Part shown: piece by piece, positions 17,951 through 62,790 of the stretch
Layout: every line of letters starts with the position of its first letter
Numbering within the stretch: the first letter of the stretch is position 1
Origin: a virus
Reading direction: 5' to 3' (one strand)
Length of the DNA stretch: 64,000 nt
Virus record (IMG/VR): IMGVR_UViG_3300050821_009856
Location: 22,248-86,247 of that record
The notes under the pieces: model-generated
What the model was told of the DNA's origin: nothing
What the model saw: the letters and a program-made list of their open reading frames with translations, nothing else
Database searches by the model: none
Translations under genes and position numbers: made by a program

Positions 17951-18024
17951 TCCAGGGTGCCAGAGTCTGGTAATGGGCGTGACTGTTAATCACGAAGCCG
18001 GTGGTTCGAATCCACCCCCTGGAG
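17951..18024 (+). tRNA. tRNA-Asn (anticodon GTT)
   Basis: A complete cloverleaf can be drawn. The acceptor stem TCCAGGG (17951-17957) pairs with CCCTGGA (18017-18023), and the discriminator is G. The anticodon stem CGTGA/TCACG has loop CTGTTAA, giving anticodon GTT. The T arm is GGTGG/CCACC with loop TTCGAAT. CCA is not encoded. TAGAAT at 17940-17945 could be its -10. The next ORF is open from inside this tRNA. Confidence 0.93.
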
Positions 18025-45139: not shown

Positions 45140-47758
45140 TCAGTTGGTATTGGTGTTGACGGTGAAGCTCAACGGGATCCGCTGATTCCAACCGGTGATA
45201 CCGATCTCCGTTGTAATGGTCGTCACTGGCGGGGCTACGACCACCGAAGCAGAGCTGATGTCCGTGAAGGTCGGATCGAATCTAAAGCCGGTCCGAAGGT
45301 TCTGTAGAATCTGGGCTGCCGTCATGTCGGCAACAGACTGCCCTGGCTGCGTGGCCAGGCCATACTCGGGGTGGAACAACGACGACCCCTGGATGGTCGA
45401 CAGGAAGACCCGAAGTCTCTGGATGATGTTCGTCAGACCAACAGCGTACCGGCTGTCGCCATCTGGCGTCATGAAGATGTCGTTGTCGTTCGTCAGTAGC
45501 AAATCCACCCCACCAACCTGGAGGAGCGGGTCGTAGGGGTTGATGTTCGGATTGCCTGGTGGCTGCCAGTCTGGCTGAGCCGGCTGCCCTTGGGAGGGCA
45601 GGTACAAGAGCTGTGTACTGTTGACGGTCTGCGGCAGGAACGAGAAAAGCGTTGCTCCCGCGGCGGTCGTGAACTGGTCGAGGTTCGGCGTACCGTCAAG
45701 GGTGAGAACGGAGACGGCGTCACTGAGCTTCCGGATAGCAACGACGTGTCTGACCTGTCTCGTGACGGTCTGGCTCTGCAGCCAAACCGACTGGTTGACG
45801 TTCAGATTCAAAGAGTCGCTGACCTGGATGTCAGAGCCGTGACCGTTCGTCAGCAGGGCCTCATTGAAGCCAACCTCGTCAACATACGGGGCTCGAAGGT
45901 TGTTCAGGGCTGCGATCTCAATCCACCGACTGGCATCCCCAAGGTACCGCGCCGCGACCATCTCCAGGGTGGAGCCAGTAGGGAAGGGGATAGCATACTT
46001 GCTGGAGGGAACGGTAAAGCTGATGCCAGATTGATTAGCCAGGGCAGCAACGTACTCCAGGGCTGTGATGCGGTTCGTGTCGTCGATCGCCGTGCTTGCG
46101 GCCAGGCGGCCAACCTCGATGACTGCCTGATTAAGGGCGAACATCAACTCCCAGTCGTCATCTGTGGGCGTCCTGGTGGTTGCCACGGGAGGCAGAAGCC
46201 CGTAGTTCGACGCGTACTTCGCTGAACCGGCGCCCACGAAGTTCGAATAGTCCACGATGAACTGCAGGAGCGTCTCGCGGATGGTCTCAAAGTCCAGACG
46301 GGTCATCTGGCGGATGTTCTGCTTGTACGTGATGATTTTCCGGTTGACGGTCGGCTGGATACTGAGCGAGCCCAGGGAGAAACTGCTGAACAGGTCGGCG
46401 TTGCTATCCGGATCCTCGAAAATTAACGTGATTGGGTCCGTCTCTCCAAAGCCCAGGTGGAATTGCCCTTGCAGTTGCTGTATCAGTTGCTGCTGGGTGA
46501 CAGCCAATGGTCCATTCTGGGTCGAGCCTACGCCACTGACAGCAGACAGGGCCCTCAGCTCGTCTCGAATGGCTTGAACCTCAGCGCTCAGTCTCGTGTT
46601 GTTCTGCAGCGGTTGGCCATTGAAGTTTCTGTTGCTGCCACTGGCTACGGCCAGGATGATGGGGATCTTCAGGTCCTGGAGGATGTTTACAGGTAGATCC
46701 AGAGCCGTAAATCCAAGGCCAAGGGCATCCTTACAGTAGGCGACGACCTCGCGGAGGGGCTGGAAGACCTTAGCGTCAACGTTGCTACTGAAGCCGACCA
46801 GGACTGACTTCAGGTTCTGAAGAGCAAGTCGAGCCGTTTGCAAATGCGCGAGGGCGCGTCCAAGCTGATTCGGATCCTTGATAGCCGGTAGGATGGTCGG
46901 AGGAATGCTCAGGCCATCGTCGAGTTCGTCGCCGCTGATTCGCCGCCACGCCTTGAAGGCCAGAGAGTACCTGTACTCCATGGGGGACTCGGCGCTCCGG
47001 CGCAACTCGAACATCTGAGGCGTCACCAGGTAGACGTCGTTATCCTTCCAGATGGCCAGGGCCAATCGATAATCGCGTCCATCCGGAGTTTTCTTGAGGT
47101 TGACGTACGCCTCCAGGAACTGCTTCAGCAACTGGAACTGGTAATAGCCAGTCGCGTGGCTAAACTCTCCCGTGACGTCTGAATCGGTGATGATGTTGTC
47201 AGGGACTCCGAAGACACCAGAGTTGACGGCAAACTGAGAGGCTGTGGAGATTATATTCGTGGCCTGTTTGGCCGTAGGATTGAGGGTGGCAGAGACACCC
47301 TGAACAATGCCAGCAAAGATGGCCCCGGCGACAGCTTGCGGAATCGCGCCACCGCTGAACGGAGAGCCGCGGATCGGCAGGTGTCCTGTAGTCCCCTGGA
47401 CGGTAATCATCCTGATTGGAGCAGCGTTGTGCTCTTCCACGATGCCACCGAGCGTAACCGTCGTGCTGATGGCGAAGGGGGTAGAAATGGTGAGTGCCTC
47501 AGGAGGGATTGGCAACGTGAAGACGCCAGACATGTCCCGGGCATATCCAGCCACACTGCCGGGTACGCGCTTCAGGAAAATGAGCTGATACGGAAAAGAC
47601 TTGTCCCATCGGGTCTCATCGATGACCGCCTGGGACCACATCGTGTCCTGGGTCGGTGCAGTCAAGGCTCCCGAGGTCGACGGAATCTGAGGGATACCGT
47701 TGGCCCGAGCCAGCTCCGTCACCGCGAAGCGGTTCGTCAGCTGTTGGATGGTCGCCAT
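45140..47758 (-). CDS. Baseplate wedge protein with LysM and gp25-like domains
   Basis: The 872-residue protein appears to fuse parts that are separate genes in many phages. The N-terminal half resembles XkdP/DUF6046-like tail proteins. A LysM-like segment lies at about 590-625 (FPTGSTLEMVAARYLGD...). The last 110 residues look like the gp25/GpW lysozyme-fold wedge protein (a LRVFLSTIQGSSLFHPEYG block). It would link hub and wedge. Its position just before baseplate J matches gpW-gpJ order in P2-like tails. Confidence 0.75.
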   Translation of the reverse strand: MATIQQLTNRFAVTELARANGIPQIPSTSGALTAPTQDTMWSQAVIDETRWDKSFPYQLIFLKRVPGSVAGYARDMSGVFTLPIPPEALTISTPFAISTTVTLGGIVEEHNAAPIRMITVQGTTGHLPIRGSPFSGGAIPQAVAGAIFAGIVQGVSATLNPTAKQATNIISTASQFAVNSGVFGVPDNIITDSDVTGEFSHATGYYQFQLLKQFLEAYVNLKKTPDGRDYRLALAIWKDNDVYLVTPQMFELRRSAESPMEYRYSLAFKAWRRISGDELDDGLSIPPTILPAIKDPNQLGRALAHLQTARLALQNLKSVLVGFSSNVDAKVFQPLREVVAYCKDALGLGFTALDLPVNILQDLKIPIILAVASGSNRNFNGQPLQNNTRLSAEVQAIRDELRALSAVSGVGSTQNGPLAVTQQQLIQQLQGQFHLGFGETDPITLIFEDPDSNADLFSSFSLGSLSIQPTVNRKIITYKQNIRQMTRLDFETIRETLLQFIVDYSNFVGAGSAKYASNYGLLPPVATTRTPTDDDWELMFALNQAVIEVGRLAASTAIDDTNRITALEYVAALANQSGISFTVPSSKYAIPFPTGSTLEMVAARYLGDASRWIEIAALNNLRAPYVDEVGFNEALLTNGHGSDIQVSDSLNLNVNQSVWLQSQTVTRQVRHVVAIRKLSDAVSVLTLDGTPNLDQFTTAAGATLFSFLPQTVNSTQLLYLPSQGQPAQPDWQPPGNPNINPYDPLLQVGGVDLLLTNDNDIFMTPDGDSRYAVGLTNIIQRLRVFLSTIQGSSLFHPEYGLATQPGQSVADMTAAQILQNLRTGFRFDPTFTDISSASVVVAPPVTTITTEIGITGWNQRIPLSFTVNTNTN

Positions 47759-48127: not shown

Positions 48128-49150
48128 TTAGCTCGTAAAATTCTGGGTAGACAGGACGTTAGCTACGGCTGTCTCAAAGGCCTGGATTGTCACCTGCATG
48201 GTCGTCACGATGGCCGCGGCTAAGGTGATGTTGGTACCTGCAGCCAGGAAGCCAGGAGCTGCGATTGCCCCGCCGATAATCGGGATGGCGTTTGGAACGC
48301 TGGCTGCAGACAGGGCTGCCCCTGCGGCTGCAAGGAGGCCGCTCAAGGTAGTCAGGGCTGTCATCAGCGCTGTGTGTAGACTCTGCTGGGCTAACCGGAA
48401 GGTGGTTCCCTTGATGATGGCGTCCAGGGCCGTGTTGCCACCAAGCTGGGTGCCCGCGGAGCTAACAATTGTCGAGTACGAGCCAGAGTTGATTGTGATG
48501 TTCGAGGCCGTCGCGTCGATCTTCACGCTCTGGTTGCCCTGCGTCCAGGTGACGCTCCCATCTTGGGACAGCTTTACATTGGTCCCCTGGGCTGATTGGG
48601 AAGCGGATGACCGAAGAGAACCGTCGGCATTGGTCGCACCGTTAAAGGTCAGCGTGAACTCGCCGTTGTCATTGATGGCTGCTTGGATGCCGTTGAAGCT
48701 CCAGGCTAGGTTGTGACCATCCGATTTCTCGTCGCTGTTGTCGTTGGTATCACGGAGGCCACCGAGGATAACGGCGTTTGGCTGGTCGCCGTTGATGCAC
48801 AGCAACAGGACCTTGCTGCCGTCACCGAGGCCGCTTGAGGTGGTGGACTGCCCGGAATCAGCCCGAAGCGTGAAGGTGCTTCGGTCTGCTACGCCACCAA
48901 AGGCGTTGACGACCCAGCAGTTCGGGTACGTCGTAACCGTTCCTGTGTGGTAGGCATCCTTGTGCTGCACCTCGACCCTGTACTCTGTCCAAGTCTTGCT
49001 GATGGACCTCTGGTCAGAGGGGTAAATGATTTCCTTGACCTCGCCAGGCCGCAGCTGGACATTGGTACTCACACCCGGGTTGCCACTTCTGCCGACAGGT
49101 GTCGTGCCGAAGTAGTGGGGAACGATAGTGCCGTCACGAAGCTGCGGCAT
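48128..49150 (-). CDS. Baseplate spike protein (OB-fold, gpV/gp5-like)
   Basis: The 340-residue protein has an OB-fold N-terminal part, with LGDGSKVLLLCINGDQPNAVILGG typical of spike proteins. Short repeating strands (about 150-230) of a beta-prism type follow, then a hydrophobic Ala-rich C-terminal helix region, which is odd for a spike tip. It would sit under the hub. GGGAG precedes the ATG. The ATG overlaps the hub gene stop. Confidence 0.75.
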   Translation of the reverse strand: MPQLRDGTIVPHYFGTTPVGRSGNPGVSTNVQLRPGEVKEIIYPSDQRSISKTWTEYRVEVQHKDAYHTGTVTTYPNCWVVNAFGGVADRSTFTLRADSGQSTTSSGLGDGSKVLLLCINGDQPNAVILGGLRDTNDNSDEKSDGHNLAWSFNGIQAAINDNGEFTLTFNGATNADGSLRSSASQSAQGTNVKLSQDGSVTWTQGNQSVKIDATASNITINSGSYSTIVSSAGTQLGGNTALDAIIKGTTFRLAQQSLHTALMTALTTLSGLLAAAGAALSAASVPNAIPIIGGAIAAPGFLAAGTNITLAAAIVTTMQVTIQAFETAVANVLSTQNFTS

Positions 49151-54738: not shown

Positions 54739-55149
54739 TTACGCCTTCGCCATCACATTGACCGCGGCGATTTCCTTCTTGGCCGCTTCAGCAGCATCGG
54801 CCAGTTCCTTCCGGAAGTCGTTCTCGACCTTCTCGACCTGGGCGTAGACCGTCTTGACCACGTTATCGTCGAAGAGGTTCATGCCGCCGTTGTTGTCCCT
54901 CCACCATGACGGAGATCCGCCCTCACCAGGCACGATTCGCATCTGACATTCAGCGAACAGCGTGGCCTGGCTAAAGGCCCGCGGAGTGGCATCCGATGGC
55001 CGGGGCCCGAGAATCTCGCGACGGATCCGATCCACTTCCATCTGTTCTCCATGAGAGAGGAGTGGCTTGACCTTGAAGGTACCGGCGAACTCGGTTCCGG
55101 AGGTATCTCCGGTGACCTTGACGATGACTGAGCGGGGCGTGACATCCAT
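54739..55149 (-). CDS. Putative tail assembly chaperone
   Basis: The 136-residue protein is the first gene of the minus-strand tail operon. A strand-rich N-terminus is followed by a KVKPLLSHGEQMEVDRIRRE helix and a C-terminal coiled helix, a layout common in tail chaperones. Its leader of about 70 nt begins at the TAATCTT motif at 55218. Confidence 0.55.
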   Translation of the reverse strand: MDVTPRSVIVKVTGDTSGTEFAGTFKVKPLLSHGEQMEVDRIRREILGPRPSDATPRAFSQATLFAECQMRIVPGEGGSPSWWRDNNGGMNLFDDNVVKTVYAQVEKVENDFRKELADAAEAAKKEIAAVNVMAKA

Positions 55150-55214: not shown

Positions 55215-55243
55215 TTGAAGATTAAGTCCGGTCCTGCTATGGT
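55215..55243 (+). promoter_or_regulatory. Promoter of the RNA ligase unit
   Basis: TTGAAG (55215-55220) and TATGGT (55238-55243) are 17 nt apart, with GC before the -10. The predicted start, about 7 nt later, coincides with the first base of the tRNA-like element at 55250. The -35 shares bases with the opposing TAATCTT motif. Confidence 0.6.
55218..55224 (-). promoter_or_regulatory. Candidate late promoter motif TAATCTT (head of tail operon)
   Basis: TAATCTT on the minus strand lies 68 nt before the ATG of the first tail-operon gene. No minus-strand gene is immediately upstream, which argues for a promoter. It overlaps the -35 of the divergent RNA ligase promoter. Confidence 0.55.
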
Positions 55244-55249
55244 ACTTAA

Positions 55250-55307
55250 GCCTGGGTGGCGGTAGGGTCGCGGACCTTACGCTGCTGGTTTGAGTCCAGC
55301 CCCGGGC
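55250..55307 (+). ncRNA. tRNA-like structure in the RNA ligase leader
   Basis: Acceptor-like strands GCCTGGG (55250-55256) and CCCGGGC (55301-55307) pair over 7 bp with one G-T. A T-arm-like hairpin GCTGG/CCAGC with loop TTTGAGT lies directly before the 3' strand, as in a tRNA. The middle holds one 8-bp hairpin (GTAGGGTC/GACCTTAC, loop GCG) instead of separate D and anticodon arms. The element is only 58 nt and has no anticodon arm, so it is not a functional tRNA. It ends 13 nt before the RNA ligase ATG, and GTACT/AGTAC could close an outer stem around the ribosome site. Confidence 0.55.
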
Positions 55308-55320
55308 ATGGAGGTAGTAC

Positions 55321-56550
55321 ATGCCGTCACTGCACGTTCAAGACTTCTTGCGGTTCCACCAGAAGACCAACCCGCTCGTGGATCCGGTAGAGGCTCTCGG
55401 CAAGCTCTACGCTATCAAGGCCAAGGCGCACGGGAAGTACCCGAATCTGGTACAGCTGAAGTACGACCAGATCGACAGCCCAATGGGCAACCCCATCGTC
55501 CAAGAGTGTCGAGGCCTAATCCTCGACCGGGACAAGAATTGGGCAATCATCGCCCACCCCTTCCATAAGTTCTTCAACAGCGAGGAGGGGCACGCCGCGA
55601 AAATCGACTGGTCAACCGCCAGGGTCCAAGAGAAGGTCGACGGCTCCCTCATCATCATGTACCACCATGACGGTAAGTGGCACGTGGCGACCAGCGGGAC
55701 CCCGGATGCGTCAGGCGCCATCAACGGCCTGCCGATGACCTTCGAAAAGCTGTTCTGGGAGACGGTCTTCATGGAGGGTAGTAAGTCCCACTACTGGGCA
55801 CACGAAGACCCAAATTCTATCTCCCCCGACATCACCTTCATGTGGGAGCTGACTTCCCCATACAACCGGATCGTCGTCCAGCACCCCAAACCCAAGCTCA
55901 CACTCATCGGCATGCGGAATCGAGTAACTGGTGAAGAATACGATGTAGCTACCAGCGCACCTCCAGGCGCTCCCATCGTCAAGCACTTCGACCTGACCAG
56001 CCTGGAGGCAATCGGCAATAGCTTCTCCACCATCTCGGCCCTGAACCAGGAGGGCTACGTGGTGGTCGACGCGAGCTTCAACCGTGTGAAGATCAAACAT
56101 CCTCAGTACGTCGCCCTGCACCACCTGAAGGGCGAGGGCTCAACGCCGAGCACCAAGGGCGCCCTGGCAGTAGTCCGGCAGGGTGAGATGGAAGAGTTGC
56201 TCAGCTACTGGCCGGAATGGGCTCCGATCTTCACCGAGGTCCGTGAGCGCTATGAGAATCTGGTGACCGAGCTGGAGACGGCCTATCAGGACGTCGTCAA
56301 GAAGGTGCCGCCTGTACCGCCCGGGGTCGTTCAGACTGACAAGCGAGCCCAGGGGTTGTTCCGGAAGGAATTCGCCACGCTGGCGACCAAGACCCGGGTG
56401 CCCGCGGTCATGTTCTCCCTGCTTGACGGCAAGGCCAAGTCCGTGCGAGAGTTCCTGGTGGGCATGCAGATCGACCACCTGGCTTCCGTGCTGAAGCTCG
56501 ACGAAATCAAGATCGACCCACAGGTCATTTTCGGGAAGGTGACGCCATGA
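55321..56550 (+). CDS. T4 Rnl1-like RNA ligase
   Basis: The 409-residue ligase has the nucleotidyltransferase motifs. The adenylated lysine K105 lies in EKVDGS (motif I), ECRGLIL (62-68) is the upstream Rnl1 block, EGYVV near residue 243 is motif IV, and VKIKHPQYV is motif V. Rnl1 seals broken RNA, classically tRNAs cut by host anticodon nucleases. GGAGG lies 6 nt before the ATG, within a leader that contains a tRNA-like structure. It heads the RNA-repair island. Confidence 0.92.
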   Translation: MPSLHVQDFLRFHQKTNPLVDPVEALGKLYAIKAKAHGKYPNLVQLKYDQIDSPMGNPIVQECRGLILDRDKNWAIIAHPFHKFFNSEEGHAAKIDWSTARVQEKVDGSLIIMYHHDGKWHVATSGTPDASGAINGLPMTFEKLFWETVFMEGSKSHYWAHEDPNSISPDITFMWELTSPYNRIVVQHPKPKLTLIGMRNRVTGEEYDVATSAPPGAPIVKHFDLTSLEAIGNSFSTISALNQEGYVVVDASFNRVKIKHPQYVALHHLKGEGSTPSTKGALAVVRQGEMEELLSYWPEWAPIFTEVRERYENLVTELETAYQDVVKKVPPVPPGVVQTDKRAQGLFRKEFATLATKTRVPAVMFSLLDGKAKSVREFLVGMQIDHLASVLKLDEIKIDPQVIFGKVTP

Positions 56551-59239: not shown

Positions 59240-59438
59240 TCCGGTGTTCATCACCAGAGAAGACGCCATCGGGCTCCTGATTGACAAGGGCCTGGCTTTC
59301 AATAATGACAAGCTGGAGCAGCTTCTGGAGAATGCCTTCGGTGACGAGCTGACGACCATGCGCGTCGTGAGTAGCTACAGCGATGAGGATCGTGATTACA
59401 ACTACCCGAACCGAAAATGGAGGTTCCACGATGAATGA
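59226..59438 (+). CDS. Small hypothetical protein
   Basis: The ATG at 59226 has GGAGG 6 nt upstream and gives 70 residues. It is mostly helical, followed by an acidic, Tyr/Asn-rich tail. Its end overlaps the Thg1-like gene start by 8 nt. Confidence 0.6.
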   Translation: MGCASPVFITREDAIGLLIDKGLAFNNDKLEQLLENAFGDELTTMRVVSSYSDEDRDYNYPNRKWRFHDE

Positions 59439-60216
59439 GGACTCGTTGGGCGACCGCATGAAGAGCTACGAGGACGTCTTCCGACAGGTCCTCCCGAACC
59501 AGCTTCCCGTCATTCTTCGGGTTGATGGTCGGGCCTTCCACAGCTACACCCGCGGTTGCGAGAAGCCGTTCGACCGGAGCTTGATGGAAGCCATGGATCA
59601 GGTGGCCCTTGATCTTTGCTCAGAGATCAACAACGCTGTCATGGCGTACGTGCAGTCCGACGAGATCAGTGTTCTGGTCGTCCAGAAGTCCAAGGACAGC
59701 CAGCCCTGGTTCGGCGGCAACCTGCAAAAGATGTGCAGCGTGGCCGCCTCCAAGGCTGCGGTCCGGATGACCATGGAGTCGCCGAACGTCTTTCCTGTGA
59801 GTGAGGCCGATTTCAGCAGCGGGACCGCGGACGTTTTCCGTGAGGCCTGCTTCGATGCCCGGGCGTTCGTTCTGCCTCCGCATGAGGTTCAGAACTATTT
59901 CGTGTGGAGGCAGCAGGACTGGGTGAGGAATTCCATTTCCATGCTCACCAGGGCGCACTACAGCCACAAGGAAATGGACGGCAAGTCCCAGTCGGACATG
60001 CACGAGATGCTGTACCAGAAGAATGTCAATTGGGCAGACCTGAGCCCTGACTTGAAGAACGGGCGGGTGGTAGTGAAGCGTGAAGTCCCCATCCAAATTC
60101 CTGCGGGCCCGAAGAGAGGTGAGATCGTCACGCGCTCGAAATGGGGCGTTGAGTTTGCACCGATCTTCACAGCCAATCGGAACTTCATCGAGCAGCTGAT
60201 GTGGCGAGATGCCTAG
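59431..60216 (+). CDS. Thg1-like tRNA 3'-5' polymerase
   Basis: The 261-residue protein carries the Thg1 signatures: DSLGDRMKSYE at the N-terminus, the metal motif RVDGRAFHSYT with D32, and AYVQSDEIS with D77/E78. Thg1 family enzymes add nucleotides in the 3'-5' direction, either G-1 to tRNA-His or, in Thg1-like proteins, to repair truncated tRNA 5' ends. In bacteria and phages the repair-type activity is the usual one. Its neighbours (RNA ligase, cREC, RlaP) support a tRNA repair role. Confidence 0.88.
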   Translation: MNEDSLGDRMKSYEDVFRQVLPNQLPVILRVDGRAFHSYTRGCEKPFDRSLMEAMDQVALDLCSEINNAVMAYVQSDEISVLVVQKSKDSQPWFGGNLQKMCSVAASKAAVRMTMESPNVFPVSEADFSSGTADVFREACFDARAFVLPPHEVQNYFVWRQQDWVRNSISMLTRAHYSHKEMDGKSQSDMHEMLYQKNVNWADLSPDLKNGRVVVKREVPIQIPAGPKRGEIVTRSKWGVEFAPIFTANRNFIEQLMWRDA

Positions 60217-61373: not shown

Positions 61374-61715
61374 ATGAAGCTCTGGCTCGACGATGAGCGT
61401 GAAGCGCCCGTGAGGTTCACGTGCTTCAGTACGACCTGTGACTGGACTGTCGCCAGGAATGCCCAAGACGCCATTACCTTCCTGAAGACTGGGCTAGTGA
61501 CGGAGATCAGTTTCGACCATGACCTTGGTCCTCGGGAGCACTACGGTGATGGTTACGACGTTGCCAAGTGGATCGAGGAGGCCGCCTTTGAGGGCCGCAT
61601 CCCGAGGATAATCTGGCGAGTCCACAGTGGGAATGCTGTTGGTCGTTCACAGATCTACATGGCCATGAAAAACGCCAATGACTTTTGGACCAGAAATGAG
61701 GCGGCACGTGACTGA
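61374..61715 (+). CDS. Cyclic-phosphate-processing receiver (cREC)-like protein
   Basis: The 113-residue protein resembles receiver domains of the cREC family: LDDER at residues 4-8, ISFDHDLG near residue 47, GDGYDVAKWIEE, and a RVHSGNAVGR block. cREC proteins are predicted to take part in RNA repair at cyclic-phosphate ends rather than in two-component signalling. It is followed at once by RlaP, which fits that idea. Assigned by motif memory. Confidence 0.65.
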   Translation: MKLWLDDEREAPVRFTCFSTTCDWTVARNAQDAITFLKTGLVTEISFDHDLGPREHYGDGYDVAKWIEEAAFEGRIPRIIWRVHSGNAVGRSQIYMAMKNANDFWTRNEAARD

Positions 61716-62790
61716 CTTCGAATTCCCCAAGAGCAACCTGGACTGGCTCCAGAAGCGGACCATCTACCTGACCCGCCACGGATCGCACGCCTACGGGACG
61801 AACACACCGGCCTCCGACGTGGACATCCGCGGCGTGGCCGTTGCTCCTCGGGAGTACTACCTCGGGTACAGCAAGCGCTTCGAGCAAGCCGAGTTCAAGC
61901 AGCCGGTGGACATGGTCGTCTACGAACTGCAGAAGTTCTTCCGTTTAGCCGCGGACTGCAACCCGAACTGCCTGGAGGTCATCTACACGCACCAGCGGGA
62001 CCACCTGCTGAACACCGTGTACGGGAACATGCTGCTGGAGAAACGTGACCTGTTCCTCAGCAAGAAGGCTCGCCACACCTTCAGTGGCTATGCCATGTCC
62101 CAGCTAAAGCGTTTGCGCGCCCACAGCCGGTGGTTGCGTGATCCACCGAAGGGCGAACCAAACCGCAAGGACTTTGACTTGCCGCCGGCCACGTTGATCC
62201 CCAAGAGCCAGCTGGAGGCTGTTCTGGCTGACGTCAGGAAGGTCACTGAGGCCTGGGACATTGCCATTCCAGGGGCCGACGAGGCATCGATCATCGACCT
62301 GAAGAAGAAGTACGCTGTGGCTCTGGCTGAGCAAAAAATCACGGCCGACAACCAGTGGGAGGCGGCCTCTCGCAAGCTCGGGGTGGACGAGAACTTCATC
62401 TACCTGATGGGCCAGGAACGGAAGTTTCAGACGGCCGTCGTGGAGTGGCGGAAGTTCCAGACCTGGAAGGCAGAGCGCAATGAGGCCCGGGCTGCCCTGG
62501 AGGCCAAGCACGGGTACGACACCAAGCACGGCATGCACCTGGTGCGGCTGCTCCGGATGGGGCGCGAGGTCCTGGCCGGCGAGGGCGTAAAGGTCTTCCG
62601 GCCGGATCGAGAGGAGCTGCTGGAGATTCGGAATGGGGCCTGGAGCTTCGACTACCTTATGGAGTGGGCCGAGAAGGCTGACAAGGACTTGGATGCAGCC
62701 TACGCCGCCTCCAGGCTGCCGCGTACGCCTGACCAGGAGAAGCTTGACCAGCTGTGCCAGCACGTCATTGAGCTGGCGGTGGGGCTATAA
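61696..62790 (+). CDS. RlaP-type RNA-repair nucleotidyltransferase
   Basis: The protein of about 364 residues has the polymerase-beta superfamily pattern GSHAYGTNTPASDVDIRG near its N-terminus (GS...DxDxRG), then YYLGYS and a long helical C-terminal region. This matches the RlaP (RNA repair pathway polymerase beta) family. Start is ATG 61696 or GTG 61708; both overlap the cREC gene, and GAGG favours the GTG. Overlap suggests cREC and RlaP are made together. Confidence 0.8.
   Translation: MRRHVTDFEFPKSNLDWLQKRTIYLTRHGSHAYGTNTPASDVDIRGVAVAPREYYLGYSKRFEQAEFKQPVDMVVYELQKFFRLAADCNPNCLEVIYTHQRDHLLNTVYGNMLLEKRDLFLSKKARHTFSGYAMSQLKRLRAHSRWLRDPPKGEPNRKDFDLPPATLIPKSQLEAVLADVRKVTEAWDIAIPGADEASIIDLKKKYAVALAEQKITADNQWEAASRKLGVDENFIYLMGQERKFQTAVVEWRKFQTWKAERNEARAALEAKHGYDTKHGMHLVRLLRMGREVLAGEGVKVFRPDREELLEIRNGAWSFDYLMEWAEKADKDLDAAYAASRLPRTPDQEKLDQLCQHVIELAVGL

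Follow-up and report, generated by a model that had tools for sequence, protein, structure and literature searches.

Why should an RNA-repair operon in a phage begin with a structure that resembles a tRNA? The locus lies in an IMG/VR virus record of 86,247 bases (G000), whose last 64 kb, the stretch analysed here, we refer to as the window. As G000 is without end repeats, it is perhaps a fragment; it carries baseplate-type genes, a DNA polymerase, a UvsX-like recombinase and a DnaB-like helicase. For a baseplate-region protein, the sole match among 50,697 phage records was Myxococcus phage Mx1 (35% identity), and alignment-based searches of IMG/VR with this protein returned 7 and 32 distant loci. 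Leftward structural genes reach position 55149 of the window, and a rightward operon begins at this junction with an RNA ligase:

54739..55149, minus strand: divergent gene that marks the syntenic junction in relatives (homology at the relatives' junctions)
55321..56550, plus strand: Rnl1-type (T4 RNA ligase 1 family) RNA ligase, 409 aa (PF09511, E 2e-18; phrog_562, E 3e-49; alignment)
59431..60216, plus strand: Thg1-like 3'-5' polymerase, ligase operon (PF04446; phrog_4717)
61708..62790, plus strand: RlaP, RNA ligase-associated nucleotidyltransferase, ligase operon (PF10127, E 2e-25)
17951..18024, strand not given: intact tRNA-Asn(gtt), kept elsewhere in the phage

Both the PF09511 profile and the KxDG motif place the ligase in the T4 RNA ligase 1 family; its KVDG nucleophile motif is intact, and K105-VDG, E176, K257 and K259 are invariant in the alignment. 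The rightward operon also holds an RNase H. Ligase, RlaP and Thg1, together with phage tRNAs, form the set reported as phage RNA repair (PMC7824862), and since ligase, Thg1 and RlaP share one operon, the gene context suits a link to tRNA.

Immediately upstream of the ligase gene lies the element in question, which is made up as follows:

55250..55307, plus strand: tRNA-like element without a D arm, the first 58 nt of the predicted transcript
55250..55256, plus strand: 5' strand of the acceptor-like stem, GCCTGGG (pair probabilities 0.98-1.0)
55257..55262, plus strand: TGGCGG linker in place of tRNA positions 8-26, with U8 kept and the D arm gone (sequence, fold)
55263..55279, plus strand: anticodon-arm-like hairpin, TAGGG-TCGCGGA-CCTTA (fold, descriptor)
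55280..55283, plus strand: CGCT at the variable-loop position (sequence)
55284..55300, plus strand: T-arm-like hairpin, GCTGG-TTTGAGT-CCAGC, with U54, U55, G57, A58 and U60 kept and T replacing C56
55301..55307, plus strand: 3' strand of the acceptor-like stem, CCCGGGC (pair probabilities; sequence)
55310..55314, plus strand: Shine-Dalgarno sequence GGAGG, two bases past the acceptor stem, with the ATG at 55321

The sequence bears out the original prediction of a 58-nt element that ends 13 nt before the ATG, with a 7-bp acceptor-like stem (GCCTGGG/CCCGGGC, including one G-U pair) and a T-arm-like hairpin that adjoins the 3' acceptor strand without a gap. That prediction also had one hairpin standing in for both the D and the anticodon arm. 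There is indeed a single hairpin, but at 5+7+5 it has the standard 17-nt size of an anticodon arm, so the D arm alone is missing. The A at 55308 occupies the discriminator position and is not followed by CCA. Outside the missing arm, seven of the nine conserved tRNA positions are kept (U8, R37, U54, U55, R57, A58 and Y60); the two that have changed are U33, now C, and C56, where the T remarked on earlier is present. In tRNA, C56 pairs with G19 of the D loop, and the T therefore fits the absence of this partner. The anticodon position reads GCG (Arg-like), followed by G37 and A38, and in the predicted fold the loop can shrink to a GCG triloop through the pairs U32-A38 and C33-G37; C33 and a loop that pairs shut argue against decoding. 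The GCG of the linker is able to pair with CGC at 55280-55282.

Folding of the transcript from 55250 predicted the three-stem structure, as had been proposed, with pair probabilities of at least 0.98 in the acceptor stem and T arm, and this structure held when the RNA was extended to 55400. The fold energy was -31.6 kcal/mol (z = -2.4 for the 58 nt and -1.7 with the ribosome site added), and its stability taken alone is unremarkable. An outer stem that GTACT and AGTAC were suggested to close around the ribosome site has to be abandoned, as GTACT (55242-55246) lies upstream of the predicted +1 and its inclusion abolishes the tRNA-like fold.

The predicted start of transcription depends on one upstream feature:

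55215..55243, plus strand: predicted sigma70-type promoter, with -35 TTGAAG at 55215-55220, a 17-nt spacer and extended -10 TGc-TATGGT at 55235-55243

This promoter places +1 at 55250, the first base of the element. The earlier claim of a start on that base thus draws support from TTGAAG-17-TGcTATGGT and from relatives, whose divergent junctions bear TTGACA-N17/18-TAnnnn promoters about as far from the divergent gene; against it, a strict consensus promoter scan listed no promoter at this site. As the window -35 is poorer than those of the relatives and slightly shifted, the start at 55250 stays a prediction. Most of the relatives' junction promoters leave at most a few bases of leader, and in L018, L019, L177, L179, L180 and L194 the predicted rightward transcripts begin 0-5 bases before the ATG, making these first genes leaderless. 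No intrinsic terminator was found. The intact tRNA-Asn(gtt) may likewise start at +1, with a TAGAAT box ending 6 bases 5' of its first base; the gene that precedes it encodes a calcineurin-like phosphoesterase.

Two further observations concern the leftward side of the junction. AGATTA at window positions 55219-55224 (TAATCT on the minus strand) lies about 57-70 bases ahead of the start of the leftward structural operon; TAATCT was seen by eye at that spacing in most syntenic relatives as well and is a candidate late-promoter -10 or factor site. One relative has a complete tmRNA at the syntenic junction (L021:5878-6286; Rfam RF00023, 105.5 bits, E 5.6e-40), on the strand of the structural genes and thus opposite to the leader. 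The tag that ARAGORN assigns to it, AKNDEFDVPFDLVVAAGFGGGPSARAWN, is long and without the usual ALAA ending.

How far the likeness to tRNA exceeds chance depends on which parts are counted. A descriptor of acceptor stem and T arm, with a T loop of at least 5/6 required, gives about 1.3 chance matches per genome, so the original description, in terms of these two parts, is weak by itself. The likeness gains from the middle hairpin and is in that respect stronger than was claimed. A D-armless descriptor (7-bp acceptor, 5+7+5 anticodon arm, short variable loop and 5+7+5 T arm adjoining the acceptor) matched once in the 86 kb, at the element, where a simulated billion bases with the genome's dinucleotide composition led us to expect 0.0046 per genome, a figure to be discounted perhaps tenfold since the descriptor was composed after the element had been seen and other truncation classes exist. 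Neither Rfam nor ARAGORN in its normal mode called a tRNA at the element. The best Rfam score there was tRNA-Sec at 14.4 bits (E 4.2; cut-off 47), and with no tmRNA match in the window we rejected both tRNA-Sec and tmRNA as identities. In pseudogene mode ARAGORN reports a tRNA-Arg(gcg), which we set aside as uninformative because this setting yields 832 calls in the genome. With no covariance or ARAGORN call, no D arm with G18G19 and no open U33 loop, the element does not qualify as a functional tRNA gene.

Conserved pairing among ligase-bearing relatives, which the original prediction had named as the point on which it would stand or fall, is absent. The D-armless descriptor matched none of the 15 other syntenic junctions. 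Four family relatives (L205-L208) carry the ligase elsewhere in the genome or in the same rightward operon (by profile: G016, 52%; G017, 43%; G027, 42%; G024, 46%), and no element precedes it in any of them. A ligase profile search, for which we used a four-sequence alignment because an alignment of eight was too divergent, gave 138 loci with related ligases; none of the 123 leaders with a definable start matches the full descriptor without mismatches. A second copy of the element is absent from the collections examined, hence there is no covariation to read and no covarying pairs in relatives by which to class the element as a conserved cis-regulatory leader of phage RNA ligases; relatives without it rule out such a leader. 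As far as these collections show, the element is confined to one record. Among the ligase homologues, one (L015:1411-1989; L012, which is G004 97075-97275 plus 99066-99824) is broken right after the catalytic KxDG by an apparent N-terminal intein half, which begins with Cys and has a HINT-like motif, and the remaining ligase sequence follows after about 1.8 kb; the insertion is possibly a split intein.

One pair of ligase loci, near-identical in sequence, does have tRNA genes at the corresponding place:

L104:22-189 and L154:73-240, strand not given: intact tRNA-Leu(TAA) and tRNA-Lys(TTT) genes just upstream of a related ligase

Here the tRNA-Lys ends 22 nt before the ligase ATG. The arrangement occurs on one virus contig and on one contig of a Methanoregulaceae MAG. 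A tRNA in the leader of a ligase is therefore a real arrangement, and the window element plausibly began in this way.

We consider the best explanation to be that the element is derived from a tRNA, has lost its D arm and is kept as the folded 5' leader of the RNA-repair operon (probability about 0.5). A tRNA gene directly upstream of the ligase would have lost its D arm while the acceptor, anticodon and T arms stayed, and transcription beginning at the first base of the remnant would make it the folded leader of the ligase-Thg1-RlaP mRNA. With C33 and an anticodon loop that can pair shut, it would no longer decode, and its action would be confined to cis: a stable structure at the 5' end, 2 nt away from the ribosome site, that influences mRNA stability and ribosome access. 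Since the Shine-Dalgarno sequence begins 2 nt past the acceptor stem, the fold must abut the initiating ribosome. A function of this kind in cis, on translation or on the stability of the mRNA, is plausible and is the most economical one. We count in favour of a tRNA-derived leader that the fold begins at the predicted +1, and in favour of tRNA ancestry, which we judge likely, the intact tRNA-Asn elsewhere in the phage. Against it count the lack of an Rfam or ARAGORN call and of a donor tRNA: searches of viral contigs, phages, plasmids and 84,980 genomes gave no match, exact or near, that would point to a donor or a tRNA attachment site. It is unusual for an RNA-repair operon to be headed by a tRNA-like element that lacks the D arm. 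If the ancestry holds, the mRNA of a tRNA-repair enzyme has gained its 5' leader from a phage tRNA gene, which would illustrate one origin of tRNA mimics at the ends of mRNAs.

The same structure could be a 5' leader without tRNA ancestry, in which a closing stem from +1, together with two hairpins, shields the 5' end and governs translation and the resemblance is coincidental; we treat this as a tentative alternative. The fold is strong in energy yet has a z of only -2.4, and an acceptor stem with a T arm is common by chance. Structured leaders before the ligase need not be tRNA-derived either, as the long ligase leader at L207:1297-1458 (G027) illustrates: its interleaved perfect 7-bp helices TTAGAGG/CCTCTAA and GTCAGTG/CACTGAC make up a pseudoknot-like structure, for which no Rfam match was found. 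What a coincidence accounts for poorly is the exactness of the tRNA sizes (7; 5+7+5; 5+7+5), the absence of any nucleotide between T arm and acceptor and the TTTGAGT loop, the combination expected at 0.0046 per genome and more rarely still if its start must equal +1.

We regard as improbable that the leader is a tRNA mimic with a regulatory or decoy function, whose binding or cleavage by the ligase, by an enzyme of tRNA processing or by an anticodon nuclease of the host would couple expression of the operon to tRNA damage. The element's position at the head of the ligase-Thg1-RlaP operon, the retention of 17/17 stem pairs despite two changed conserved loop positions and the nearness of the Shine-Dalgarno sequence to the acceptor stem are consistent with a mimic, and there are parallels in HisRS mRNA (PMC6542539), the YrlA operon (PMC7790460) and PrrC (PMC3014915). 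These points are opposed by the lack of conservation in any relative, whether the ligase is present or absent, and by an anticodon-like loop predicted to close to a GCG triloop. More improbable again, on this model, is that the mimic has been selected and that a host anticodon nuclease which attacks tRNA, or the ligase, would engage the anticodon-like arm and so raise expression of the RNA-repair operon, or that the leader would serve as a decoy. Sensing of tRNA damage by analogy with such systems is possible, although comparison among relatives gives it no support; if the mimic were sensed, tRNA damage in a phage infection would be linked directly to expression of the RNA-repair genes.

That the element is a tRNA gene which died recently and now does nothing is very unlikely. 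Such a reading would agree with the lack of conservation, with the loss of the D arm, U33 and C56, and with the tRNA genes that kin have beside their ligases. The stems speak otherwise. In a neutral-change simulation conditioned on losing 2/9 conserved loop positions, all 17 stem pairs stayed intact in about 1% of runs (P = 0.012, a rough value from a flat prior and small counts), so plain neutral decay is unlikely; either the fold must be under selection or the loss must be very recent. The decayed tRNA gene that had been offered as the dull alternative thus fares well as a remnant, which the tRNA genes upstream of the L104/L154 ligase make at least as well supported, and awkwardly as plain decay. 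A working D-armless tRNA-Arg with anticodon GCG is hardly credible: in arm sizes and in C35-G36-G37-A38 the element agrees with an Arg-type loop, and CGC accounts for 21% of the Arg codons across the predicted genes, but C33 replaces U33, the loop pairs shut, bacterial enzymes would find no D arm, and a review restricts armless tRNAs to metazoan mitochondria and describes bacterial tRNA genes as uniform (PMC4033280).

In its predicted fold, the leader, which we take to be tRNA-derived, is close to the D-armless metazoan mitochondrial tRNAs (for example mt tRNA-Ser(AGY)), which also keep the acceptor, a 5+7+5 anticodon arm and the T arm, have a few bases in place of the D arm and measure about 58-60 nt. 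The window element differs in that it belongs to a phage, is predicted to stand at an mRNA 5' end and has C33 and an anticodon loop predicted to be closed. Among tRNA-like RNAs of mRNAs, the E. coli thrS operator is a tRNA-like mRNA operator. Yeast HisRS represses its own mRNA via an anticodon mimic (PMC6542539). In both, as in the window, an anticodon-arm-like structure lies in the mRNA of a tRNA-acting enzyme; binding and control have been shown there, whereas the window leader is known from its predicted fold. In Salmonella, tRNA halves induce the rsr-yrlBA-rtcBA repair operon, one of whose products is the tRNA-like YrlA, proposed to inhibit the nuclease (PMC7790460). YrlA is likewise a tRNA-like RNA inside an RNA-repair operon, but it partners the Ro/Rsr protein and has a Ro-binding stem. 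G000, perhaps a fragment, gave no match to RF02553 (YrlA) or PF05731 (TROVE), and we rejected YrlA or another Y RNA as the identity of the element. Mx1 carries a TROVE (Ro-like) protein (L011 1-763) and, at 45169-45297 and 48625-48745, sub-threshold matches to the YrlA model (32 and 23 bits), which could represent tRNAs or a Y RNA of the phage. PrrC cleaves a bare 17-nt anticodon stem-loop (PMC3014915), and with HisRS and YrlA it makes a sensing or decoy role thinkable. The genes downstream of the element belong to the phage RNA-repair sets described in PMC7824862, where we found no tRNA-like leader described. The closest counterpart in gene order is the tRNA-Leu/tRNA-Lys/ligase arrangement of L104/L154: its tRNAs are complete cloverleafs with CCA and the window element is truncated, but in both a tRNA sequence lies directly 5' of an Rnl1-type ligase, with which it is probably co-transcribed.
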